A stretch of 64,000 nucleotides of DNA from Nocardioides aromaticivorans. Lineage in GTDB: Bacteria > Actinomycetota > Actinomycetes > Propionibacteriales > Nocardioidaceae. Position numbers and translations under genes: made by a program. This document shows positions 7,692-21,926 of this stretch, piece after piece. The notes below the pieces were generated by a model, which was not told the DNA's origin, searched no databases, and was given only the letters and a program-made list of their open reading frames with translations. The number at the start of each line of letters is the position of its first letter. The first letter of the stretch is position 1. The stretch lies in contig NZ_JACBZM010000001.1 of the NCBI RefSeq assembly GCF_013408525.1, positions 3,534,001 to 3,598,000 of the forward strand, given 5' to 3'.

Positions 7692-8480
7692 TCAGGGCAC
7701 CTCGATCGTGACGTTGGCGCGCTGGTTGCCCGGCGTGGCCGCCATGGTGGCCCAGAAGTCGGTGCTGCGCATCCACGCCGGGATGCCGAAGGGCAGGTCC
7801 CGGCTGGGGATCTCCGGGAGCTCGTCGGGGGTGAAGTCGGCGCCGTAGGGGACGAGCGGCGTGGCCACGTCCGGGTCCTGGATGCCGGCGTGGAGGCTCT
7901 GCAGCGCGATGTTCCAGTTGTCGAGCAGGTCCTTGCGGCTGATCGGGCCGCCCGGCTTGTCGGCCGTCGGGTGCAGCGCCTTGTGGAAGGTGATCGTGGG
8001 CAGCACGGCCTGTCCGGCGGGCGTGGCCGTGAAGGCCGTCCACGCGTCGAAGGCCGGGGTGCCGAAGGTGACGACCGCCTCGATCCTCCCGGGCGCGAAG
8101 GCGGCCTCGAACCACTGGTTGCGGTAGGCCTCGATCTCGGGGTCGTGCAGGTGGGGCAGCGCCTGCGACTGGTTGGAGATGCCGTAGAGGAAGGCGTTGA
8201 TCATCAGGTAGCGCCTCGTGTAGCCGAGCTTCTCGACGAAGCCCTGGACGCGCCGGCCGGCCTGGCCCGAGAGGATCCGCCGGGTGACGGCCTCGGTCTG
8301 GGCGGGGTCCTGGCCGACGACGAGGAGCCGGGCGGTGCCGTTGGCGCGGCCGCGGTAGAAGATCGGTCCCCACAGGGAGCGAAAGCCGTCGCTGCCCTTG
8401 AAGACGGTGTCGTCCGGGTAGGTGCGGCACAGGGTCTTGAACGCGCCGGTCGGACCGGAGTCGAAGGGATCGCTGATCAT
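7692..8480 (-). CDS. Uracil-DNA glycosylase-family protein
   Basis: 262 residues with the UDG superfamily layout. LLVVGQDPAQTEAVTRRI is the motif-1 loop, normally GxDPG/GQDPY, which supplies the water-activating residue. It is followed by LMINAFLYGI (motif-2 region, Asn binding uracil), VTFGTPAFDAW and TFHKALHPTA, where the late His-Pro is the leucine-loop motif. It is longer than classical UDG (about 220 residues) and closer to uncharacterised UDG-like proteins of actinobacteria. Convergent with the AraC gene, only 7 bases apart, and no hairpin is visible between them. Confidence 0.7.
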   Translation of the reverse strand: MISDPFDSGPTGAFKTLCRTYPDDTVFKGSDGFRSLWGPIFYRGRANGTARLLVVGQDPAQTEAVTRRILSGQAGRRVQGFVEKLGYTRRYLMINAFLYGISNQSQALPHLHDPEIEAYRNQWFEAAFAPGRIEAVVTFGTPAFDAWTAFTATPAGQAVLPTITFHKALHPTADKPGGPISRKDLLDNWNIALQSLHAGIQDPDVATPLVPYGADFTPDELPEIPSRDLPFGIPAWMRSTDFWATMAATPGNQRANVTIEVP

Positions 8481-10999: not shown

Positions 11000-11147
11000 A
11001 TGGCCCTGGTCCAGCCACCCGTGCAGCCGTCCGTCGTGCCGCCGGTGGTCTCGGCGCCCGCCTCCGACGAGGTGGTCGCGCGTCTCGACGAGGAGCTCCG
11101 CGCCGCCGTACGACGTGAGGGGCTCGACCCGCAGCGCGACCCGGGCT
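11000..11147 (+). pseudogene. cpaF: cpaF/tadA ATPase, 5' fragment (interrupted)
   Basis: About 48 codons from ATG 11000 (MALVQPPVQP ... DEVVARLDEELRAAVRREGL). The helix VVARLDEELRAAVRREGLDP looks like the N-terminus of actinobacterial TadA-type secretion ATPases. The identification rests on the matching internal ATPase fragment at 15952 in the same orientation and on the tad genes downstream. Homology stops at about 11144-11148, where the inserted element begins. The Walker A region of the ATPase is absent from both surviving pieces. Confidence 0.65.
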
Positions 11148-11148
11148 G
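11139..11148 (+). repeat. Left att-like short repeat (ACCCGGnCTG)
   Basis: ACCCGGGCTG here matches ACCCGGACTG at 15953-15962 in 9 of 10 positions. The two copies sit exactly where cpaF homology stops and resumes, about 22 bases beyond the recombinase start codon on the right. This is compatible with attL/attR core remnants of a serine recombinase, but a match this short could be chance. Confidence 0.35.
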
Positions 11149-11363
11149 TTCGACCACCGCAGGAGGTAGGGGCGCGGTCGCAGGTACATCTTCGTCAGGC
11201 CCTCGCGCAGGTGCGGGCTGCCCTTCCTCTCCATGAGGGCCCAGTGGTGGGCTGGCTCGCCGCACTTCAGGCAGGCCTTGTCCTTCGCCTTGCCGCGGTG
11301 TCGGCTGAGCCTCTTGTGGGCTCCCTTGTAGTCGGTCTCCGACCAGGTCTCCGTGTCTGTCAT
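11149..11363 (-). pseudogene. Phage-type small zinc/HNH-like protein, truncated by the element end
   Basis: From ATG 11363 the frame encodes MTDTETWSETDYKGAHKRLS, a basic RHRGKAKDKAC region and CLKCGEPAHHWALM. The combination YxxAHxR...RGKA...C-x-x-C-G-x-A-x-x-W matches the N-terminal half of small HNH-type proteins common in actinophages. The usual second CxxC/H part is missing. After about 11149 the frame only continues into antisense cpaF, so the gene is cut at the element boundary. In a circularised element its 3' end would join the recombinase side. Confidence 0.5.
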
Positions 11364-11413
11364 GCACTCTGGTTCGGCACTTCGTGCGCCCTTGTCCGGG
11401 TAGGGTCCGGGGC

Positions 11414-12238
11414 GTGATTCAGATTGCAGTCGGCATCGTGGCGGGCGTGTTCGCCGTGCTCCCCGCCCTGCTCGTCACGCCCAAGCGGCGACAGCTGAAC
11501 CACATCAAGGAGGAGGCCGCGGTCATCAAGGAGATGCCCGAGGGCCCCGCCCGCCGGAACCTTGAGGCCGCCCACGTCGCCTCGACGGAGGCCTACGAGC
11601 GCCGGATCAAGGGACTCGACCGCGTTGACATCCTGCGTCGGCGGCTTGGGTGGCTCTTTCCCGTGGGCTACCTGGGCTTCCTGCTGGCGGCCGGGGCGAT
11701 CATCTACGCCGACCGCCTTGCTGACCAGCTCGGCGTCAAGGAAGGCACAGCGGCCACCGGCATGAACGTCGCCGGAGCGCTTCTGCTGTCGCCGCTCGTG
11801 GTGACCGTCCTTCAGCTGCGCACCGCGTTGCGTGAGCGGGACGAGCGGTTGAAGAAGGAGGTTGAGCGGCTTGAGAAGGTCGACGCCTCCCGGGCCGCCA
11901 CCGCTGCGCAGCGCGAGTCCTTCCAAGAGGCGCTCCGCAAACTGCAGGATCAGGTCGCCGGTGACGAGGACCGGATCTCGCGGGACCTCCAAGCTCAGCT
12001 GGCGCGGCTCAACGAGGGAGTCGCCCGTAGCGCCGTCAGTGGCAAGCGCCTCAGTACGGGGACCATGCGGTTCGTCAAGAACAAGGACGGCCGGTTCGTT
12101 GCCGTGACCAAGGAGCAAGGCGAGGTTGCTCCCGGCACTGGTGACGGCAAGCCGATGCGCGAGTTCCGGACCGACGACGCGCCCAAGTCGAAGGACGAGG
12201 ACGGCGACGAGCCCACGGCTCCCGTGCCGGTGAGCTGA
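11414..12238 (+). CDS. Membrane protein with coiled coil, unknown function (element cargo)
   Basis: About 274 residues from GTG 11414. An N-terminal membrane helix (VIQIAVGIVAGVFAVLPALL) is followed by a basic, helical cytosolic stretch. Two more membrane helices come next (WLFPVGYLGFLLAAGAII and GMNVAGALLLSPLVVTVLQL), then a coiled coil of about 70 residues (RERDERLKKEVERLEKV ...) and a charged disordered tail. I do not recognise the family. It is the only gene of the element on the + strand and ends in a hairpin shared with the convergent gene. It could be cargo such as a defence or surface function, but that is a guess. Confidence 0.55.
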   Translation: MIQIAVGIVAGVFAVLPALLVTPKRRQLNHIKEEAAVIKEMPEGPARRNLEAAHVASTEAYERRIKGLDRVDILRRRLGWLFPVGYLGFLLAAGAIIYADRLADQLGVKEGTAATGMNVAGALLLSPLVVTVLQLRTALRERDERLKKEVERLEKVDASRAATAAQRESFQEALRKLQDQVAGDEDRISRDLQAQLARLNEGVARSAVSGKRLSTGTMRFVKNKDGRFVAVTKEQGEVAPGTGDGKPMREFRTDDAPKSKDEDGDEPTAPVPVS

Positions 12239-12247
12239 CGGCGTGCG

Positions 12248-12279
12248 AAGGCCCCAGCTCGGTGAGGAACTGGGGCCTT
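12248..12279. terminator. Bidirectional hairpin between convergent genes
   Basis: Stem AAGGCCCCAG with its exact complement CTGGGGCCTT, 12-base loop, between the stop of the membrane gene (12238) and the stop of the convergent gene (12295). The A/T-flanked stem can work in both directions. Confidence 0.7.
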
Positions 12280-12294
12280 GTTGGCTGTCGTGGG

Positions 12295-13155
12295 TTACGC
12301 CACCCTGCGGAGCGCTCCCGAGTCGCAGAGCATCGCGATCGCGACAGCCATCGTCACGGCGGCGCGGGCCTCCTCGAGCGAGTTGGCTGACTCGCCTGCG
12401 GCGTGTCGGTCCTTCTGCCCGTAGCAGATGGCTCGGGCCAGCTGCATGACCGTCTCCCGGCCGTCCAGCTCGGTGTGCCGGTCCGGGTTGAACGTCGGCC
12501 TGGACTCTGTGATGCAGGAGCCCCACTTCTCGGGCTTCGCGTCGTAGTCGCCGATCATCTTGCCGAGCTTGGCGTCGCCGTCCTCCGGACTGATGATTGG
12601 TCGGAGGATTGCCTCAGTCGCCTTGAACGCGTCGCTCCAAGCGTCGTCCGGGCGTGGGTCCATGCCGTAGGCGGCGTTCCAAGCCTTGGTCAGGAGCTTC
12701 GACGCGCCCTCGGGTGAGGCGCTGATGGCGAGCTCGACCTGCTCTCTCGCCGACGGGTGGACGCGAAACTCCAGGCCGCGGCGGTCCATCCGCACTGCGT
12801 AGCCCGACTTGCCGCGGACCAGAATCTCTTCGAGAGTCTTCGCACGGTGGTCGTACGGGAGATGCTTCAAGATGGCGCGGATCGTGTTCAACATGCCGTC
12901 GGGTGTTATGCAGTAGTTCGCGAACCACTGCCTGTACTGACCCGCCCTCACGCCCAAACTGGAGTTGGAGGTCGGAGGTGGAGTCTTTCGGAGGACGTTG
13001 AAGATCTTCAGCATCTCGTTGATGCCGTAGGACCTCTCGGGCTCGATGACTCCTCGGATCCAATTCCAGAGCTCGCCGTGAAGGTGCGGCGGCACGTCGT
13101 AGTGGAGAGGCTCCAGCTCTTCTAGGCGGTCTTGTTCGTCGGGGTCCCACGGCAT
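12295..13155 (-). CDS. Possible abortive-infection (Abi_C/HEPN-like) protein
   Basis: 286 residues, no signal peptide or membrane segment. The C-terminal 130 residues (ATEAILRPIISPEDGDAKLG ... KMIGD ... KDRHAAGE ... EEARAAVTMAVAIAMLCDSG) resemble in layout the Abi_C-type domain at the end of abortive-infection proteins: a helix, a 'xLGKMIG' segment, an R-x-H-x-x-G turn near KDRHAAG and a final helix with EARAAV. The N-terminal half is unfamiliar. The assignment rests on pattern memory and is tentative. Its location in a recombinase element fits defence cargo. Confidence 0.45.
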   Translation of the reverse strand: MPWDPDEQDRLEELEPLHYDVPPHLHGELWNWIRGVIEPERSYGINEMLKIFNVLRKTPPPTSNSSLGVRAGQYRQWFANYCITPDGMLNTIRAILKHLPYDHRAKTLEEILVRGKSGYAVRMDRRGLEFRVHPSAREQVELAISASPEGASKLLTKAWNAAYGMDPRPDDAWSDAFKATEAILRPIISPEDGDAKLGKMIGDYDAKPEKWGSCITESRPTFNPDRHTELDGRETVMQLARAICYGQKDRHAAGESANSLEEARAAVTMAVAIAMLCDSGALRRVA

Positions 13156-13302
13156 GCCCAGATCGTAGGCACCGGTCCCGACTTTTCTCAGACGTTAGAG
13201 GCCCCGTCCCGAAGTCGTTGGAGCGCCCACGGGCCGGGGCTGGTCGGCGTGGCACACAGAGGACAGAGACCAGACCTCGCCGACGTCTACTGGTACGGCA
13301 CT

Positions 13303-13483
13303 TCAGGCGACCTTGTGTGCTGGCTTCCCGCACTCGCGGCAGAAGCCGATGGGCTTGCCTCCGCCTCGCGGCCTGCGCCAGATCACGGCGGGCTTCTCCG
13401 TCGAGTCCTTCGGCTGGATCATCGTGTCGCAGTGGACGCATCGCCATCCGCGCCCCTGGGCTGGCGGGTGTCGGGTCGGTCAT
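13303..13483 (-). pseudogene. Small zinc-ribbon protein with a +1 frameshift
   Basis: ATG 13483 has a GAGGAG site 7 bases upstream and starts MTDPTPASPG. Removing one G from the GGGG run (minus strand, 13453-13456) joins this to a frame reading WRCVHCDTMIQ ... PIGFCRECGKPAHKVA and a stop at 13303, giving a 58-residue zinc ribbon with two CxxC pairs. As written, the ATG frame runs through without the zinc pairs. It is either a real mutation or a homopolymer sequencing error. The start overlaps the preceding gene's stop (ATGA). Confidence 0.5.
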
Positions 13484-13677
13484 CGCGGGCTCCTCGCGCG
13501 GATCAGAGGTTGATCTTGTTCCCTGCCCAGGACGTAACCCGCCCTTACCCATTCCATAGGGCCTTGGGCGGGTGCGTCGTTGGGCAGGCCTGCCGTTGGA
13601 CGTGGAGGTCTCGCACCTCCGCCACCCTTGCGGATGGTCCCCGAGCCACCGTTCTCCGGTGGACCTAGCGCGGGCAT
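13480..13677 (-). CDS. Small hypothetical protein upstream of the zinc ribbon
   Basis: 65 residues from ATG 13677, rich in Gly, Pro and Arg (MPALGPPENGGSGTIRKGG ... PMEWVRAGYVLGREQDQPLI ...). There is no recognised domain. It ends in a 4-base overlap with the zinc-ribbon start, the main support for its being real. The frame extends upstream to a TTG at 13827, just after the next gene's stop, so the true start could be earlier. Confidence 0.35.
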   Translation of the reverse strand: MPALGPPENGGSGTIRKGGGGARPPRPTAGLPNDAPAQGPMEWVRAGYVLGREQDQPLIRARSPR

Positions 13678-13830
13678 CTGCCTTGGAGTCGAGGAAGCAT
13701 CTTGCTCCACCGGGAGGGGCTGTCTGTTCAGCGCGTCTCCGGTCCGACGCGGGCGCTCCATGTCCCGTCGGTGCTTCACGGCTCGCCCGTTTCGTGGGCT
13801 ATCCGGAAGGGATCTGTGCTGGGCCAACGG

Positions 13831-14334
13831 CTACGCCTTCGACTTCTGTACGGAGACTACATCGTCCTCGGCGCGCTCCTTCCTCAGCTTCTCGGCGCGA
13901 CGTGCGTAGAACGCTGCGAATGAGGCCTTGCGGCAGGTCAGGCACATCCGCGAGCCGCGGTTGGTTCCGGTGTTCTTCGGCGTGAACTCGTGGCCGTTCT
14001 TGCAGTGCGTGCTCAGGGCCCGCGGGACGGCCACCTTCGGCTGTGGAGCAGGCTTCTTCGGTCGCGGCGTCGGGACGTCCCGCTTCGGACGTCCCCGCTT
14101 CTTCGGGACGTCGGGGTGCTGCCGCTTGAGGCAGGTGGCGCTGCCGACGTGGAGGCGCAACATCTGCGCCTTCGCGACTGTCCAGCCGCACTCTGGGCAG
14201 GTTCGGGCGTCCACCTCGTTGGCGGCCTCGACCATGTCGGCGGCGTAGCTGGGGTCGATGGAGAACTGGACCAGTGCCTCCCACGTCAGCGCCGCGAACT
14301 CGATCAGCAGCCGGTCCTCGTCGATGTCGTCCAC
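13831..14334 (-). CDS. Phage-type zinc-finger / DNA-binding protein
   Basis: 167 residues from GTG 14334. A first zinc knuckle, CPECGWTVAKAQMLRLHVGS followed by ATC (C-x2-C...H...C), is followed by an AT-hook-like KKRGRPKRD. A second zinc module reads HCKNGHEFTPKNTGTNRGSR then MCLTCRKA, and the tail is a basic helix. The second module is the pattern seen in small actinophage zinc/HNH-associated proteins. It probably binds DNA in the recombinase element; no catalytic HNH core is visible. Confidence 0.6.
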   Translation of the reverse strand: MDDIDEDRLLIEFAALTWEALVQFSIDPSYAADMVEAANEVDARTCPECGWTVAKAQMLRLHVGSATCLKRQHPDVPKKRGRPKRDVPTPRPKKPAPQPKVAVPRALSTHCKNGHEFTPKNTGTNRGSRMCLTCRKASFAAFYARRAEKLRKERAEDDVVSVQKSKA

Positions 14335-14447
14335 GGTCCGACGTACGTCGATGGATGCCTGGACTCGGCGGGCTACCGCGCCGTGGCCTAGTGATCAGGT
14401 GGCCTGGAGATCGTGGAAGTCAGGGTCACGTAGCAACCCCACCTTGG

Positions 14448-15931
14448 TCACCCGTAGAGCGGTTCGCCGGTGCTCACGTTGAGCGGCGTGATGTCCACGC
14501 GCTGGCGTGCCAGCTCCTGCGTCGGCCTGACTCCCTTCGGGTGGGGGAGCACCTGCACCGAGACGAGGGCCTTGATGACGGCCTGCCGCTTCTCGAGCGA
14601 CGTGTTCGGGTCGAGCAGGCGGGCCTTGATGTCCTCGGCCGCGAGCCGGATCGAGAAGCCGCCGACCGCCTCCATGCCGACCTTGTCGACTGTGAGGGAG
14701 GAGAACATGTCGGCGAGGTGGACGCTGCGCAGCAGGCGGCCCGACTCCTTCTCCAGCGCGGCGCGGGCGGCGTCGATCTCCTCGGTGAACTTGATCCGGT
14801 TCGAGATCGACAGGCCGGACTTCGCTAGCTGGCGCTCGTCCTCGTCCAGCTCGGCGCGCTTGGCGTGCAGGGCGTCGAGGCGGGTGCGGTCGTCGGCGGT
14901 GGCCTGCAGGAGGTCGTCGGTCGGGAAGGCGAGGCGGGTCGCCACGACGTTGGTCACCACCTCCTCGGCGATGTCCTTCAGGATTGAGGCGCGGCACTTC
15001 GACGCGATGCCGCCGGTGCACTGGTAGAGCTCGTAAGGGACTCCGGCACGGGTCACCGTCTTGCCCCACCTCATCCTTCCGCCGCACTTGGCGCAGGTCA
15101 GGACGCCGCTCAGCAAGTGCTTCCTACCGACGCCCGCGTTGTTCGTCCGGCGCTGCGGCTGTCAAGGACCGAGCGGGGCTTGCGCAGTTCGTCCTCGGTC
15201 ACGATCGGCTCCCAGGCCGCCGGACCGACAGGCTCGCCCTTGTGCTCGCGGATGCCCGCGTTCCGCCACCGCCGGATCATCGACGTGAAGGAGGAGTAGT
15301 GCCACTTGCCTCCTCGGGTCGTCTTGACGCCCGCCTCGTTCCACTCGCGGATGATCGAGGCCAGCGAGGCACCGTTCAGGATGCGGGCGGTCGCCTCAAC
15401 GATCAGGGCCGCCTCCTCGTCGTCGTGTTCGATGCCGCCGACCTTGAAGCCGAACGGGCCACCGCCTCCGGAGGGTAGGCCCTTCTCCCGCAGCTCTTGG
15501 TGCTTGCGGTGGACGCGCTCGATCATGTGCTTCACCTCGTGCTGGGCGACGGCGCCGGCCACCTTCGCCTGCATCCGACCGGCCGGAGTCGAGAGGTCGA
15601 GGACGCCGCCCTATCACTGAGTGGGTGGGCACCTTCTCCGCCACGGCGATGTAGTCCTCCAACTCCGCCGTCCGGCGGTGGAGCCGGTCAGTGTGCCAGA
15701 CGATGACCGCGTCGATGGCGCCGTCTTTCAGGGCTTCGAGGAGGTCCCGGTAGCCGGGGCGGACCTTGGCCTGTAGGCCGAGGTGTCATTGTCGGAGAAC
15801 ACCGCGACGACGTCGAGGCCCAGCTCCTCTGCCTTCGCTCGACAGTCCTGCTCCTGGCGGTCCACGCCGAGGCCTGCGCCGGTGCGGTCCTGCGAGATGC
15901 GGGTGTAGATCGCCGCCCTGTTCTTCTGCAT
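14448..15931 (-). pseudogene. Large serine recombinase (site-specific integrase), three frameshifts
   Basis: Reads from ATG 15931: MQKNRAAIYTRISQD with catalytic Ser13, then GLGVDRQEQDCRAKA. One base appears lost near 15776; the next frame gives KVRPGYRDLLEALKDGAIDA and HTDRLHRRTAELEDY. A second shift (+1 or -2) near 15605-15612 leads into LSTPAGRMQAKVAGAVAQHE and the recombinase domain (FGFKVGGIEHDDEEAALIVE, GVKTTRGGKW). A third (-1) near 15142 leads to LLSGVLTCAKCGGRM, the zinc-ribbon domain and a coiled coil. Repaired, it would be about 490 residues with every domain of the family. As written it cannot be made as one protein. Confidence 0.85.
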
Positions 15932-15951
15932 AGAGATACGTGCCTTGCTAC

Positions 15952-16128
15952 CACCCGGACTGGGTGGCCCTGCAGACCCGGCAGGAGGGGCTGGAGGGCG
16001 CCGGCGAGGTCCGGCTGCGCGACCTGGTCAAGGAGTCGCTGCGCATGCGGCCGAGCCGACTAATCGTAGGAGAGGTGCGGGCCGAGGAGTGCCTCGACCT
16101 GCTGCTCGCCCTCAATGCCGGGCTGCCC
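15952..16128 (+). pseudogene. cpaF: cpaF/tadA ATPase, internal fragment
   Basis: 59 in-frame codons, HPDWVALQTRQEGLEGAGEV through KESLRMRPSRLIVGEVRAEE to LLALNAGLP. This is the Walker B/His-box core of TadA/CpaF-type pilus ATPases (typically RMRPxRIIVGEVRxxE...ALNxGLPG). Upstream lies the integrated element. Downstream, homology stops after GLP, where family members continue GMxTLHANSAREAL; instead cassette DNA begins. Walker A, the AAxR region and the C-terminus are missing. Confidence 0.85.
15953..15962 (+). repeat. Right att-like short repeat (ACCCGGnCTG)
   Basis: Partner of the repeat at 11139-11148 (9/10 identical). Crossing over within the shared ACCCGG would remove the element and join the two cpaF pieces in frame (…RDPDWVALQ…). 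Confidence 0.35.
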
Positions 16129-16206
16129 CGACTCACCGGAGAGCGTAACTCGTGCCGGGGGGCTGTCGCAGCCGTCGCCTAGGCTCAGACCAGGAGGCGT
16201 AGGGAC

Positions 16207-19200
16207 ATGGGCAGTGGAAACGGGCTTCCGCATCTCGCGGACGGCACCGATGTGGTGCGTTGGGCCGACCAAAGGTCTGCGCAATCCGACTTGCCCAGGC
16301 TGGTGCGTCGCCTGATACGTCATGAGAACGATCAGGTGCAGCGGGTTGAGATGCGGGGTGGCGAGGGCGTCGGACTCCCGGGATACGACGGAGTTGTTGA
16401 AGCGACGCGGGCGACCTCCTTCGTTCCTGCGGGTCTGAGTGTCTGGGAGATGGGTGTCGACAAGGACCCCGCGGGCAAGGCGACGGACGACTACACGACG
16501 CGAACAGCGAACCCGCTCGGGGTCGACATGGCCACGACCACATTCGTGTTTGTCACGCCTCGGCGATGGCGCAAGAAGAAGGACTGGGAACAGAAGCGCC
16601 GCGAGGAGGGCAAGTGGAAGGACGTCCGAGTCCTCGACGCAGATGACATCGAGCAGGCGCTCGAGGAGGCGGCGGCAGTTCGTATCTGGCTGTCCGAACT
16701 CCTCGACATGCCCGCTCTCGGGGCAGTGACCATCGAAGACTGGTGGCGTGGATTCTCCGGAGGGTTCGACCCGCGGTTGACTCCGGCGGTCGTGCTCGCT
16801 GGCCGGGAGAACGAAGCGGCGGAACTGTTGCGTCGTCTCTCGCCGGATGTTGGGAAGACCTTTATCAAGGCGGCGAGTGTTGACGACGGACTAGCCTTCG
16901 CGGCCTGCACGATGCTGGCCCAAGAGCCCGACGGCGCAGAGCCGATGCTTTCCCGGTCTCTCGTTGTTCACGACGGGATCACGCTCCGGCGCTTGGACAG
17001 CGCGTCCCGACTGTTGATCCTCCTCCCGTACGAGGAGCACTTGCAGCGCGAAGCACAACAGATCGCGAACCACCACGTCGTGTTCGTGGTTACTGAGGGC
17101 GACGCGACCATCGAACTTCCGCCGCTCGACCATCTGACGCTGGAGGCCGCCCTACGGGACGCCGGAGTGCCCGACGCGGACTTGAGCCGCTACGTCAGGG
17201 CGGGCAACAAGAGCCTCCTGGCTCTTCAGCGTGTGTCTGCCAAGTCGGGGCAGCCCGGCCCTGATGAGTGGGCCAACGACCTCTCGGATCGCCTGGTGCG
17301 CAGGGCATGGCTGGCTGGTGCATGGAGCCAGCTACGCAGTGGTGATGTGGAGGTGCTTGAAGCACTCACCGGCGGTCTGCCCGAGGACATTGAGGAGCGC
17401 CTCCAAAGCGTGATCCGTCAGCCGGACCCTCTCTTCACGCGAGTGGGATCGACCTGGGCTGTGGTTTCACCCGAGGACTCCTGGCGAACAGCCCGGCATG
17501 CCATTCGCGAGGCGGACCTTGAAGCACTTGAACGGGCAGTGCAGACGGTGCTGGCCTCCGTAGACCCAAGCCTCGACCTACCTCCCGATGAGCGCTGGAC
17601 TGCCGAGATATACGGGAAGGTGCGCGTTCATTCGACGGACCTTCGAAAGGGTCTGGCGCGATCCATCGCCCTGCTAGGCAGTCACGGCGACGAGGCTCGG
17701 CTCGCTGGCGGCCGGTCGGCTCGCCAGTGGGCGGAGAGGGTGGTCTGGAGCCTGCTACGACGGGCCAATGAAGACCTCTCTGCCCAACTGTGGGCGTCGA
17801 TTGAGGACGTGTTGCCGCTACTCGCCGAGGCGGCACCAGACGTCTTCCTACGGTTCGCCGCCGAAGCAGTCAGTGGTGATGACCCACTGCTAGCGAAGTT
17901 GTTCCAGGATCAAAGCGACTCATGGCAGGTCAGCAGTCCGCACACGGGACTTCTCTGGGCTCTGGAGTGCGTCGCATGGTCGAGTCACCACCTGGGCTTC
18001 GCAACGGAGATTCTGGCTCGGCTGGCCGAGTTGGACCCTGGTGGCAAGTTGTCGAATCGACCGGAAAGTAGCTTGCAAGGGATATTCCGTCCCTGGCTCC
18101 CACAGACGTCCGCGCCCGCCGAGACGCGAATCTCGACACTAGACGCGTTGCTCGAACGCCATGAGGACGTGACGTGGAAACTCCTGCTTTCGCTCCTGCC
18201 GGAGCACCATGCCGTGGGCATGCCCACCCACAAGCCTCGTTTCCGCGACTGGGCGGGTGAAGGTGAACGCGCCGTCACGTACGGCGAGTACTTCGGGGTG
18301 GTCGAAGCGATTGCCGAGCGCGTGCTCCGCCTCGCGGCGGCCGAGCCCGCCCGTTGGACTGAGGTCATTACCGAGTTCGATCGGCTGCCCGAAGCGAGCC
18401 GTATTGCGGCGATCGCTGACCTCGAGAACCTCAACACTGAGGGTCTGTCCGAGGACGAGTCCAGGGCGATCTGGAGCGCGCTCGAAGACTTCATTCGTCG
18501 CCACCGCGAGTTCCCGGATGCGGATTGGTCCGTCGCCGAGGAGTGGCTCACGAGCCTCGCCGCTATCGCCGACCGCGTACGACCCGCACGCGCCAGCGAA
18601 CAGCACCGCTGGCTCTTCGATGACTGGCACCCGGACCTAGCCGCGTCACTTCGAGATGACTTCGATGCCCGTGAAAGGGAGGTCGACCTGGCGCGCCAAC
18701 GCGCAGTAGCGCAGATCATCGCGGAGGAGGGGTTCCCCGCCGTGATGGCGCTGGCTCAGGCCGCAAAGCTTCCGTGGGCGGTGGGTTCGGCGCTCGCCCG
18801 GTCGGGAGGGGAGTTCGACATGGAGGCGCTGTCCCTGCTGGATAGCGAGGACACGTCGCTAGTTCAGTTCGCTGACGGGTTCGCGCGTATCCGCGGCGGC
18901 CGAGAAGCACCGATGGTTCGCCAGTGGGTCGAACGATTCGACGGGCGGCCTGTTGCTCAGGCCCGTTTGCTTCTGACCCTCGATGACGTCCAGGACGCCT
19001 GGGCCATGCTTGCGAACCTTCCCGACGAGGTGGACAGCGCGTATTGGGCCGAGTTTGCGCCGTATGGACGAGGCGCCGACTTCCCACATGCGAGTGAAAC
19101 GGCTAGACAACTCTTGCGACATGGCAGGGCTGCAATGGCGGTAGACGCCCTAAGTCTGTACGCGAGGCGCGATGCCGTCGAGGTAGACGTCGTGGTGGAT

Positions 19201-19974
19201 GCACTGAATGAGTTCGGGAGCGCGGAAGACCCCGAGGTCGGCCGCGTCTCTGAGCATGACCTCACGACCCTCCTCGATTACTTGCGTGCGCATGATGTCG
19301 ATGAGTCGGTCCTGGCGCGACTGGAGTGGAAGTTCCTCCCCGCGCTGCATGACGAGTCGCGGGCGAAGTCTCTTCAACGCCTTATGGCGCGGGACCCGGC
19401 GTCCTTCGTTCAACTCATCGAATACGCGTTCAGGCCTTCGGATCAGCGGGACGTATCGGAGCCGCCTCGTGTGGACCCGGGACTGGCCGCGAACGCCTAT
19501 CGGCTTCTGCGGGAATGGCGCAGGGTGCCAGGCACTAACGATGACGGGGTTGTGGAACAGGAAAAGTTGGAGTCCTGGCTTCGCGACGTTCGCGCCCTCC
19601 TTAGTGAGACCGGCCACCTCGAACTCGGTGAGCTGCAGATTGGCGAGGTGTTCGCCCATTCGCCAAGCGAGAGCGATGGGACGTTCCCTGCGCGTGCTGT
19701 TAGGAACGTCCTAGAGGCGGCGCCCAACGATCGATTCGAGCGAGGCTTCATCATTGGCCTGCACAACAAGCGAGGCGTCACGTCCCGCGGGATGACCGAT
19801 GGCGGCAAGCAGGAGTACGACCTGGCACAGCAGTACGACACCTGGGCGGAGCGAGTCGAGGCGACTCATCCCAGGACCGCCGGAGCCCTCCGCTCAGTTG
19901 CGGACTCGTACCGCAATGAGGGTCGCCGCAATGACGAAGAAGCGAGACGGTTCCTGGAAGGCATGGACCTGTAG
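16207..19974 (+). CDS. Very large protein, nuclease-like N-terminus plus helical body; candidate defence protein
   Basis: 1,255 residues, no signal peptide or membrane segment, AGGAGG site before the ATG. Residues 55-100 contain GLPGYDGVVEA (Asp61), FVPAGLSVWEMGVDKD (Glu81, Lys86) and KATDDYTTR. Then FVFVTPRRWRKKKDWEQKRR (113-132) and a VRVLDADDIEQALE helix follow. The DG...WE...K order is compatible with a PD-(D/E)xK-type nuclease fold, but I cannot confirm it. Residues 190-330 (GRENEAAELLRRL, a short LLILLPYE strand) resemble the setting of a STAND-like domain but lack a Walker A motif. From about 350 on the protein is alpha-helical and repeat-like, as in solenoids. The gene is intact beside broken host genes. 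Function unknown. Confidence 0.7.
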   Translation: MGSGNGLPHLADGTDVVRWADQRSAQSDLPRLVRRLIRHENDQVQRVEMRGGEGVGLPGYDGVVEATRATSFVPAGLSVWEMGVDKDPAGKATDDYTTRTANPLGVDMATTTFVFVTPRRWRKKKDWEQKRREEGKWKDVRVLDADDIEQALEEAAAVRIWLSELLDMPALGAVTIEDWWRGFSGGFDPRLTPAVVLAGRENEAAELLRRLSPDVGKTFIKAASVDDGLAFAACTMLAQEPDGAEPMLSRSLVVHDGITLRRLDSASRLLILLPYEEHLQREAQQIANHHVVFVVTEGDATIELPPLDHLTLEAALRDAGVPDADLSRYVRAGNKSLLALQRVSAKSGQPGPDEWANDLSDRLVRRAWLAGAWSQLRSGDVEVLEALTGGLPEDIEERLQSVIRQPDPLFTRVGSTWAVVSPEDSWRTARHAIREADLEALERAVQTVLASVDPSLDLPPDERWTAEIYGKVRVHSTDLRKGLARSIALLGSHGDEARLAGGRSARQWAERVVWSLLRRANEDLSAQLWASIEDVLPLLAEAAPDVFLRFAAEAVSGDDPLLAKLFQDQSDSWQVSSPHTGLLWALECVAWSSHHLGFATEILARLAELDPGGKLSNRPESSLQGIFRPWLPQTSAPAETRISTLDALLERHEDVTWKLLLSLLPEHHAVGMPTHKPRFRDWAGEGERAVTYGEYFGVVEAIAERVLRLAAAEPARWTEVITEFDRLPEASRIAAIADLENLNTEGLSEDESRAIWSALEDFIRRHREFPDADWSVAEEWLTSLAAIADRVRPARASEQHRWLFDDWHPDLAASLRDDFDAREREVDLARQRAVAQIIAEEGFPAVMALAQAAKLPWAVGSALARSGGEFDMEALSLLDSEDTSLVQFADGFARIRGGREAPMVRQWVERFDGRPVAQARLLLTLDDVQDAWAMLANLPDEVDSAYWAEFAPYGRGADFPHASETARQLLRHGRAAMAVDALSLYARRDAVEVDVVVDALNEFGSAEDPEVGRVSEHDLTTLLDYLRAHDVDESVLARLEWKFLPALHDESRAKSLQRLMARDPASFVQLIEYAFRPSDQRDVSEPPRVDPGLAANAYRLLREWRRVPGTNDDGVVEQEKLESWLRDVRALLSETGHLELGELQIGEVFAHSPSESDGTFPARAVRNVLEAAPNDRFERGFIIGLHNKRGVTSRGMTDGGKQEYDLAQQYDTWAERVEATHPRTAGALRSVADSYRNEGRRNDEEARRFLEGMDL

Positions 19975-20026
19975 GGCAGCCCTTAGGGCTGCGCGACTGT
20001 AGGGCAGCCCTACGGCTGCGCGACCT
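19971..20026 (+). repeat. Tandem 28-base palindromic repeat after the large gene
   Basis: Two near-identical units, GTAGGGCAGCCCT followed by GGCTGCGCGAC (19971-19998 and 19999-20026). Each can fold: GCAGCCC-TTA-GGGCTGC at 19976-19992, and GCAGCC-CTAC-GGCTGC at 20004-20019. A related inverted GGCTGC/GCAGCC palindrome follows near 20096-20114. The first unit overlaps the stop of the large gene. They may act as a double terminator or be a REP-like repeat. Confidence 0.65.
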
Positions 20027-20153
20027 CTATGCCCGTACACGGCGCGGGACGCTATGCGCTTCGGTGTCACACGCCCCCGGGGGAGGCGGTCCCCAAGGGC
20101 TGCGGCAGCCGTACGGCATGACGGACCGCCATGTCTCGACCTATGCGGGCAGG

Positions 20154-20630
20154 ATGGTTCCTGTGCACCCGATGAACCTCATTCCCCTCGCCAAGCCTGT
20201 TCCGGTGGACGACGCTCGGGACTGGCTCGACCACGTGGCCATCTGGTCTGGTGCTGTCGGTGCTCTCCTTGCCGCATTCGCCATCGGTTACGCCGCGTGG
20301 CAATCGGTGCAGACGAAGAAGGACCTCGTGCGTGAACGTCGGCTCGAGTTCGAGTTGGGCCTGCTCGCGGAGATTCGACGCCAGATGTCGATTACCCAGT
20401 TTCAGCATCTGTCGGGCTACGTAGGAGCCTTGGTCCGAGACACCCAGGACGAGACCGACATCCCGGTGCTGCGCGCCCTCGTGGGGACGAAGGCCGGGCC
20501 GAACGGGCGGCGCCGGCGCGACGAGCTCGCGGATGCAGCGCGCGGACGAGCGGCCGATCCCCAAGCGGACTGGTTGCAGTGTGCGGCGGAAGAGGTAGAT
20601 GCTGCCATCCAGCGACGACTGGAGGGATGA
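20154..20630 (+). CDS. Single-pass membrane protein of unknown function (cassette gene 2)
   Basis: 158 residues from ATG 20154; ATG 20172 (MNLIPLAKP) is an alternative and the frame is open further upstream. One N-terminal membrane helix (WSGAVGALLAAFAIGYAAWQ) is followed by a basic juxtamembrane segment and a soluble helical domain of about 110 residues (RERRLEFELGLLAEIRRQMS ...). This 'one TM then cytosolic helix' plan is common to membrane effectors but not diagnostic. It is followed 6 bases later by cassette gene 3, so the two are an operon. Confidence 0.55.
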   Translation: MVPVHPMNLIPLAKPVPVDDARDWLDHVAIWSGAVGALLAAFAIGYAAWQSVQTKKDLVRERRLEFELGLLAEIRRQMSITQFQHLSGYVGALVRDTQDETDIPVLRALVGTKAGPNGRRRRDELADAARGRAADPQADWLQCAAEEVDAAIQRRLEG

Positions 20631-20636
20631 TCCTGC

Positions 20637-21044
20637 GTGGACGATTCAGATGCGCAGTACCTGCAAGACAATCGGCATATCGCCGAGCGCCTAATGATCC
20701 TCTTGCAGCGCCGACGCCTCCTTCGTGATCGCGTGATGGACGAGGACTACGAGGAGTGCCGGAAGTCCGCTCACGACCTTCGTAAGGTCTTCGAGAACGA
20801 GATGCTGACGGTCAGGGGAGGCGGCTTCCTGCTCCGCGCGCTGATGGACCTCCAGGCGGCGTGTACGACCTTCGTGAGCGCAGCAGGACGTAAGTCGGAA
20901 GCATTCCGCCGCGACGATGAGTTGTTTCGCTACCACCTGATCGTCCTGCGGGAAGTCTTCGCCCAGCGCGTTGGTCTCATCGTCGAAAGGTTCAACCTGG
21001 TCGTCACCCCGGAGCTTCAAGGAATCATCGACTTTCGACGGTGA
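20637..21044 (+). CDS. Helical soluble protein of unknown function (cassette gene 3)
   Basis: 135 residues from GTG 20637, with a GGAGGG site overlapping the end of gene 2. The protein is entirely alpha-helical and charged (AQYLQDNRHIAERLMILLQR ... YEECRKSAHDLRKVFENEML ...). No R-x4-6-H HEPN motif or cysteine cluster is present. The close spacing suggests it works with the membrane protein upstream. A GC hairpin follows directly. Confidence 0.55.
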   Translation: MDDSDAQYLQDNRHIAERLMILLQRRRLLRDRVMDEDYEECRKSAHDLRKVFENEMLTVRGGGFLLRALMDLQAACTTFVSAAGRKSEAFRRDDELFRYHLIVLREVFAQRVGLIVERFNLVVTPELQGIIDFRR

Positions 21045-21067
21045 TTTCTCCCGAGCGGACGGCGGAC

Positions 21068-21093
21068 GGCGGGCGGCCACCAAACCGCCCGCC
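21068..21093 (+). terminator. Hairpin at the right end of the cassette
   Basis: GGCGGGCGG, 8-base loop, CCGCCCGCC, 24 bases after the stop of cassette gene 3. No T-run. It marks the end of the cassette operon before host tad sequence resumes at about 21160-21190. Confidence 0.6.
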
Positions 21094-21175
21094 TCGCGGT
21101 CGGAGGGGACTCAGCCTCGGAAACCCAAAGTTTCGAGCCCAGCGCACGGCGGTCCGAGGGCCGCCCACGGCAACG

Positions 21176-21926
21176 TGGTGGCAGCCGTGTTCCGCCCCGG
21201 GCTGCGCAGCGCGGCCGACGGCGTCGATCGCGTCCTGGGCGGCTCGGCCTAGGTGCGGCGCCGGCTGTCCCGGGCGGGTCTCGACATCGACGTCCACGAC
21301 TTCCGGATCCAGCAGGTGCTGTGGGGGCTGGCCGGCTTCGGCGTGGCGGCGGCGTACGGGCTGGTGCGGGCGTGGACCCACCCCGGCAACCCACTTCCCC
21401 TGCTGGTCGTCTGCGTGGGCGCGTTCGTGTTCGGCGTGCTGCTGCGCGACAACCGCCTCTCGGCCCAGGTCAAGCAGCGCGAGAGCGCCATCGTCGCGGA
21501 GTTCCCCACCATCGCCGAGCTGCTGGCCCTGAGCGTGGCGGCGGGCGAGGCGCCGGTCGCTGCGTTGGCGCGGGTCGTCCGGCGCGTGGTGGTGAGCTGT
21601 CGCGCGACCTGTCCGAGGTGCTGGCCCGGATCCGCACCGGTGAGCCCGTCGCCGACGCCTTCGACCGGTTGGCGGGGACGTCCGGCGTGGCGGTCGTCGC
21701 CCGTTTCGCCCACAGCGTCGCGGTGGCCGTCGAGCGGGGCACCCCGCTGGCCGACGTGCTGCACGCCCAGGCCGCCGACGTGCGCGAGGCGGGGCGGCGT
21801 GCGCTCATCGAGCAGGCCTCGCGCAAGGAGATCTTCATGATGATTCCCGTCGTGTTCCTGGTCCTGCCCGTGACCGTGATCTTCGCCTTCTGGCCCGGCT
21901 TCGTCGGGCTGTCGCTCAGCTACTGA
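21176..21926 (+). pseudogene. tadC: tadC (type II secretion F family), 5' truncated, amber codon and frameshift
   Basis: Host sequence resumes with VFRPGLRSAADGVDRVLGGS, then an in-frame TAG (21250-21252, one C-to-T change from CAG). It continues in the same frame with VRRRLSRAGLDIDVHDFRIQ. A one-base loss near 21583 shifts the frame before GGELSRDLSEVL. The T2SF core (VARFAHSVAVAVERGTPLAD ... KEIFMMIPVVFLVLPVTVIF) and a normal C-terminus follow. The N-terminal membrane helix was lost at the cassette boundary. TadC-type proteins form the inner-membrane platform of the pilus machine; this copy cannot be functional as written. Confidence 0.85.

Follow-up and report, generated by a model that had tools for sequence, protein, structure and literature searches.

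A probable single-gene NLR-like immune receptor without a Walker A motif in an inserted stretch of the Nocardioides aromaticivorans genome

Bacterial immune receptors of the AVAST type (Avs1–Avs5) join an N-terminal nuclease (Avs1–4) or another effector to a central STAND (signal transduction ATPase with numerous domains) module and a long C-terminal sensor; passages of PMC12931631 report that PaAvs5-1 has GPAGSGKT and that PaAvs5 needs its ATPase activity for immunity. Inactive STANDs, with eroded NTP-binding motifs, are described in parts of PMC8195603 and PMC12839542 as proposed sensors that go with variable effectors, in MoxR-vWA ternary systems and in BREX. In bacterial amyloid signaling sequence (BASS) systems and fungal amyloid signalosomes, a motif at the receptor N-terminus recurs at the C-terminal end of the effector encoded next to it (passages of PMC7889193), and PNP_UDP_1 and lipase (SesB-like) domains are given in a section of PMC12258605 as canonical effectors of fungal NOD-like receptors (NLRs). 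Here we compare with these systems a gene in a 64,000-nucleotide stretch of N. aromaticivorans (contig NZ_JACBZM010000001.1, positions 3,534,001 to 3,598,000; hereafter the window), which we read, with a probability of about three in four, as encoding an immune receptor of NLR-like build, made by one gene and probably directed against phages or plasmids.

The open reading frame (ORF) listing of the window places the receptor gene at 16207–19974 on the forward strand, with 1,255 codons and no interruption. An earlier annotation by a model, made from the letters alone (the sequence-only reading), had likewise noted an intact 3.8 kb gene followed by two small ones, which we find to encode 188 and 135 aa. 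The gene and its predicted domains are as follows.

16207..19974, + strand: receptor gene, 1,255 aa, intact, with an AGGAGG-like site upstream (read by eye)
16207..16716, + strand (residues 1–170): probable PD-(D/E)xK-type nuclease domain, with Asp61, Glu81 and Lys91
16750..17241, + strand (residues ~182–345): STAND/AAA+-like domain, with AGR(E) at 198–200 and without Walker A
17290..17463, + strand (residues 362–419): winged-helix-like unit behind the NTPase-like domain, from the secondary-structure order in the model
17530..19971, + strand (residues ~442–1255): all-helical solenoid, likely the sensor, with HEAT-type best PDB matches for the C-terminal half

The sequence-only reading had proposed a possible PD-(D/E)xK-type pattern in the N-terminus, with Lys86 or Lys91 as its lysine. 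In our family alignment, which excludes truncated, duplicate and wrongly oriented loci, Asp61, Glu81 and Lys91 were invariant in 53/53 rows and Lys86 lay outside the conserved columns, so that the triad stands with Lys91. The predicted core runs alpha-beta-beta-beta-alpha-beta, as expected for the PD-(D/E)xK superfamily, and structural matches agree with the model on this fold, from which we consider the N-terminal domain a probable DNA-cutting nuclease. The lysine is displaced into the helix here, a position known from some PD-(D/E)xK families. The absence of Walker A was also borne out: [AG]x4GK[ST] occurred in 0/57 family rows within residues 190–260, and its occurrences anywhere in the sequence (17 of 256 proteins) never followed strand 1, as judged by their positions.

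In the PDB, the model of the N-terminal half came closest to Avs3 (8dgc), Avs5 (9nc9), the Apaf-1 apoptosome and Avs4 (8dgf), and structural alignments with NRC4 and Dark covered residues 177/182–504/512. Models and fold matches together give the order effector, NTPase fold, winged helix and repeat sensor that is typical of STAND and NLR proteins, and what had been called a long helical body can be resolved more specifically into a STAND-like module that is inactive, followed by a winged helix and a HEAT-like solenoid. For the C-terminal half, Foldseek returned only generic HEAT-type matches, and therefore no ligand can be deduced. The solenoid carries two conserved motifs, DPGGxLSNRP (residues 610–619) and NxRGxxxRxxxxGGxxE (1187–1203), and the family alignment varies most across its residues 700–1090.

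Compared with AVAST, the window receptor shares the layout but differs in having no Walker A. When we searched PADLOC at E ≤ 1, no family, Avs models included, matched the window protein, and 39 family members weakly matched three families, none of them Avs. Since it lacks both Walker A and a match to an Avs model, we do not file it as AVAST, although it would probably work like an AVAST or NLR receptor. It resembles the inactive STANDs in the eroded NTP-binding motif within a STAND fold, the proposed sensor role and the link to variable effectors. The likeness is one of description, and the difference is that here the inactive STAND-like domain is fused to its own effector and a solenoid; Pfam found neither MoxR nor vWA among the eight window proteins scanned.

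The strongest evidence for the immune-receptor reading comes from the front ends that relatives carry in exchange on the same body. Among 136 relatives (P0121–P0256), the hidden Markov model of the nuclease domain scored above 20 bits in 98 and gave a partial match in one more, while the remaining 37 comprised 20 proteins with a TIR domain, five with an amyloid-like motif (one in a looser form), one (P0233) with two apparent membrane segments, seen by eye, and 11 that start at the body. Eleven of the 20 TIR proteins had a precomputed TIR_2 match and the others were assigned by sequence; four start within the TIR domain. The nuclease itself is preceded by a helix-turn-helix (HTH) domain, HTH_3 or HTH_17, in many relatives, and by a HTH_20/MarR-like stretch, below cut-off, in one. 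We built a body-only tree by a quick method from 140 proteins, sampled as every sixth of 120 listed homologues plus P0121–P0256, with a body of at least 900 aa and an assignable front end. The TIR proteins formed one clade and the amyloid-motif proteins another (support 100 each), both nested among nuclease-bearing branches. The tree needs at least 14 architecture changes, mostly gain or loss of an N-terminal extension scored as HTH; as it is unrooted, the nuclease as ancestral state is a deduction. Effector domains are thus exchangeable within the family, and a body shared by nuclease, TIR, membrane and putative amyloid front ends suggests a construction like that of NLR immune receptors. At the window locus there is no TIR, no amyloid partner and no amyloid motif, and the immune reading of it rests on these relatives.

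The amyloid-motif relatives pair with a neighbouring gene. At locus L058, the receptor starts with GFQIGDGNIQIN, and its immediate upstream neighbour ends in GFQIGNSNTQIN plus a few residues. Searching 250 genomes of L058's family, presumed to be Micromonosporaceae, we found a relative in 10 at E ≤ 1e-30; the four closest of these loci (L104–L107) carry the amyloid motif, and the other six are without its strict form. L104 is the L058 locus again, and we left out L060 and L053, a near-duplicate of L058 and a duplicate of L041, respectively. In all four (4/4), an adjacent gene ends in the same motif at an equal distance to the stop codon: L104 and L105 have as partner an alpha/beta hydrolase encoded upstream, with an Abhydrolase_6 match above cut-off, and L106 and L107 a PNP_UDP_1 phosphorylase encoded downstream. 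Among the 8,533 open frames in 117 loci, the strict motif occurred 12 times, in every case within a receptor-partner pair; in this count L104 repeats the L058 locus and L060 nearly does. Pfam RHIM matched the L106 partner weakly (E 0.035, below cut-off) and gave no match to the other three. We liken the motif to RHIM and BASS3 by resemblance, with no BASS model behind the identity, and amyloid formation is putative. The arrangement, with one motif shared by the receptor N-terminus and the C-terminal end of the neighbouring gene product, is like that of the NLR and BASS amyloid signalosomes (BASS3, HELLP/PNT1), but the partners are an alpha/beta hydrolase or PNP_UDP_1, not BELL, and the receptor is without Walker A.

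The family had been taken to be unnamed, and our searches agree. For the window protein, Pfam and NCBIfam gave nothing above cut-off and phmmer found no PDB sequence at E ≤ 10; a profile of residues 1–620 against PDB sequences returned nine chance-level hits (best E 0.21). Pfam on 45 family N-terminal halves gave scattered weak matches of one to three members each, among them one to VMAP-M2 (E 0.0042) that we did not rely on. The function-less PHROG cluster phrog_18693 matched residues 16–1248 (E 6.6e-170); it is the same family across nearly the whole length and carries no mechanism. At least 1,309 database proteins are relatives at E ≤ 0.001, out of a candidate set capped at 7,992, and the names among the 120 matches listed are hypothetical, TIR-domain, HTH/excisionase or transposase-like, none of them functional. 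We recognised no published description of the family in a search that lay outside supplements and most subscription papers, so that its unpublished status is not established.

The family distribution is rare and patchy. Relatives at 54 genome loci span Actinobacteria, Proteobacteria, Bacteroidota and Firmicutes, and 22 plasmid records hold relatives, 18 of them with at least 80% coverage. Counting the window's own genome, the family was present in 4 of 396 genomes of a phylum sample, where two candidates were scored per genome and misses are possible, and 4 of 58 genomes of closer relatives gave a match, one of the four being an 18-bit hit. N. szechwanensis is among the genomes with a family locus (L043). 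In a phage collection, the family was found in one record of 50,697, despite the existence of phrog_18693.

Neighbourhoods of the relatives, together with effector swapping, support the role in defence or conflict that had been suggested. By annotation, four of eight plasmid regions had defence-type neighbours, namely a Shedu-domain protein in one, restriction-modification in another, SIR2, abortive-infection, AbiEii and RES-Xre in a third and a PDDEXK protein in the last; the other four had none by annotation, one of them being unannotated. In 23 genomes, receptor-flanking genes (up to three per side; 135 of 137 scanned, two being omitted by a residue limit) had hits to 210 PADLOC families at E ≤ 1e-10, against 23 for 124 control genes from 14-kb stretches of these contigs at a distance of some 90 kb or more, a comparison that gives a direction and not a rate, since the PADLOC families overlap (three GajB-like genes match many) and the genes were called by a codon model trained on the receptor. 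In three Actinobacteria (L025, L026 and L029, at about 13992–18248), a gene of 1,389–1,411 aa lies directly 3′ of the receptor, and these genes are alike by place and size only.

That the intact gene is under selection, as had been proposed, is supported by ratios of nonsynonymous to synonymous substitution rates (dN/dS) near 0.1. A close copy in N. ungokensis (89–95% identity, in pieces) is frameshifted and the window copy is intact; against two pieces of the former, dN/dS was 0.075 and 0.138. Against L013, it was 0.077, with a saturated dS (3.4), and L007 was left out of the comparison because its dS was not computable.

The predicted nuclease fold, the HTH_3 or HTH_17 domains fused ahead of it and the carriage on plasmids would also fit a restriction-type nuclease, in which the solenoid or fused HTH recognises DNA (modified, foreign or plasmid) and the N-terminal domain cuts it with no switch. 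We consider this unlikely: the same body occurs with non-nuclease front ends of the TIR, amyloid-motif and membrane types, and is therefore more than a DNA-targeting arm. Plasmid carriage could also be that of an addiction or stress-death module, similar to a toxin-antitoxin pair, that stabilises its mobile elements, and some relatives do have a fused XRE-like HTH, which in one is annotated as "HigA family addiction module antitoxin". Such a module is a still more doubtful explanation, as the small genes beside the window receptor are absent from 67 other loci, leaving no conserved antitoxin, and the effector classes of the family are those of immune receptors. The wide phyletic spread might suggest a housekeeping DNA-repair or chromosome protein, but this is so improbable, given the counts of 4/396 and 4/58 genomes, the plasmid carriage and the exchanged front ends, that we discarded it on the patchy distribution. 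The sequence-only reading would itself have been undermined by a fold unrelated to nucleases or by homologues in mainly housekeeping contexts; the predicted fold is nuclease-related, and we saw no conserved housekeeping context.

The same reading had joined the receptor and the two small genes in a three-gene cassette, which we rejected, as the small genes fail to recur with the receptor.

20064..20630, + strand: 188-aa small gene, GTG start, apparently a passenger, not conserved with the receptor
20637..21044, + strand: 135-aa small gene, GTG start, apparently a passenger

Searched with tblastn at E ≤ 1e-3, neither small protein had a hit in the other 67 loci, a set that includes short or overlapping loci as well as L014, the closest receptor locus. 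We therefore do not count them as part of the receptor system, and they look like separate passengers. The single transmembrane segment ascribed to the 188-aa protein is a reading by eye. Among 118 genomes of the genus, including the window's own, each had one other weak match, and the homologue of the 135-aa protein (29% identity), in another genome of the genus, has as neighbours a 276-aa ORF and a tyrosine-type integrase (named by eye). Window 20064–21044 and L103 506–1905 may represent a mobile pair, beside a tyrosine-type integrase, in which a larger ORF that seems to have a membrane segment precedes a 135/156-aa protein; only the second protein is a confirmed homologue.

The receptor lies in a stretch that replaces host DNA, as had been noted.

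15950..16128, + strand: apparent tadA remnant (named by translation), at the left end of the stretch that was replaced

Window 15950/15952–16128 matches a segment in 7/7 relatives at 84.8–87.7% identity, and because the match ends at 16127/16128, position 16129 is the exact left edge of the inserted stretch. The right edge is less sure: the host match is back at window 21175 and 21214 in 2/7 relatives, and the other five showed no match at that position. In those two, it resumes about 1.4 kb further along, so that an insertion of roughly 5 kb took the place of about 1.4 kb of host sequence. The interrupted gene appears from its translation to be tadA, a name with no family model behind it. GC content in 1-kb bins was 0.63–0.69 across 12–21 kb, against 0.72–0.77 at 1–11 kb and 0.71–0.76 at 21–33 kb, and a few further bins of the window also dip to 0.66–0.67.

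A recombinase element adjoining the receptor had been described correctly, in that a serine recombinase (PF07508, PF13408) is present in overlapping broken frames, whereas the Abi-like gene placed in it did not hold up: this upstream 286-aa gene had no match in Pfam, NCBIfam, PADLOC or PHROG. These genes belong to a second insertion of about 4.8 kb (window 11000–15950), apparently into the same tadA, for which relatives match at 11054–11151 in 2/7; it holds the 286-aa gene, a 167-aa gene whose C-terminal part matches phrog_826, of HNH-endonuclease type, and the frame-broken recombinase, and is followed by the remnant at 15950. After the receptor insertion, a host gene at 21253–21926 (TadC-like by eye) is divided between two reading frames, and the tad cluster therefore seems decayed on both sides.

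For the NLR-like receptor, the domain order, the intact D-E-K triad, the missing Walker A and the front-end exchange in relatives were computed; from them we infer how it may act. The C-terminal helical solenoid would bind an invader cue, and the central inactive STAND-like module and winged helix would keep the protein off until cue binding frees it to oligomerise. The assembled N-terminal PD-(D/E)xK domains might then cut DNA, whether the invader's, the host's or both, and so protect against phage. As Walker A is missing, activation would proceed without the usual ADP/ATP exchange. More broadly, and here we regard the case as evenly balanced, the family may be a widespread, unnamed class of bacterial NLRs without nucleotide exchange, with sensor, inactive STAND switch and effector in one polypeptide. 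Its body would serve several outputs, namely nuclease, TIR, membrane or a RHIM-like amyloid, and the amyloid would pass the signal on, as fungal NLRs do, to a hydrolase or nucleoside phosphorylase encoded separately. If this is true, the family, with its 1,309 or more proteins that lack a functional name, would become a new class of immune receptor, raising the question of how an NLR switches without ATP binding and showing built-in enzymatic effectors and amyloid relay exchanged inside one receptor family.

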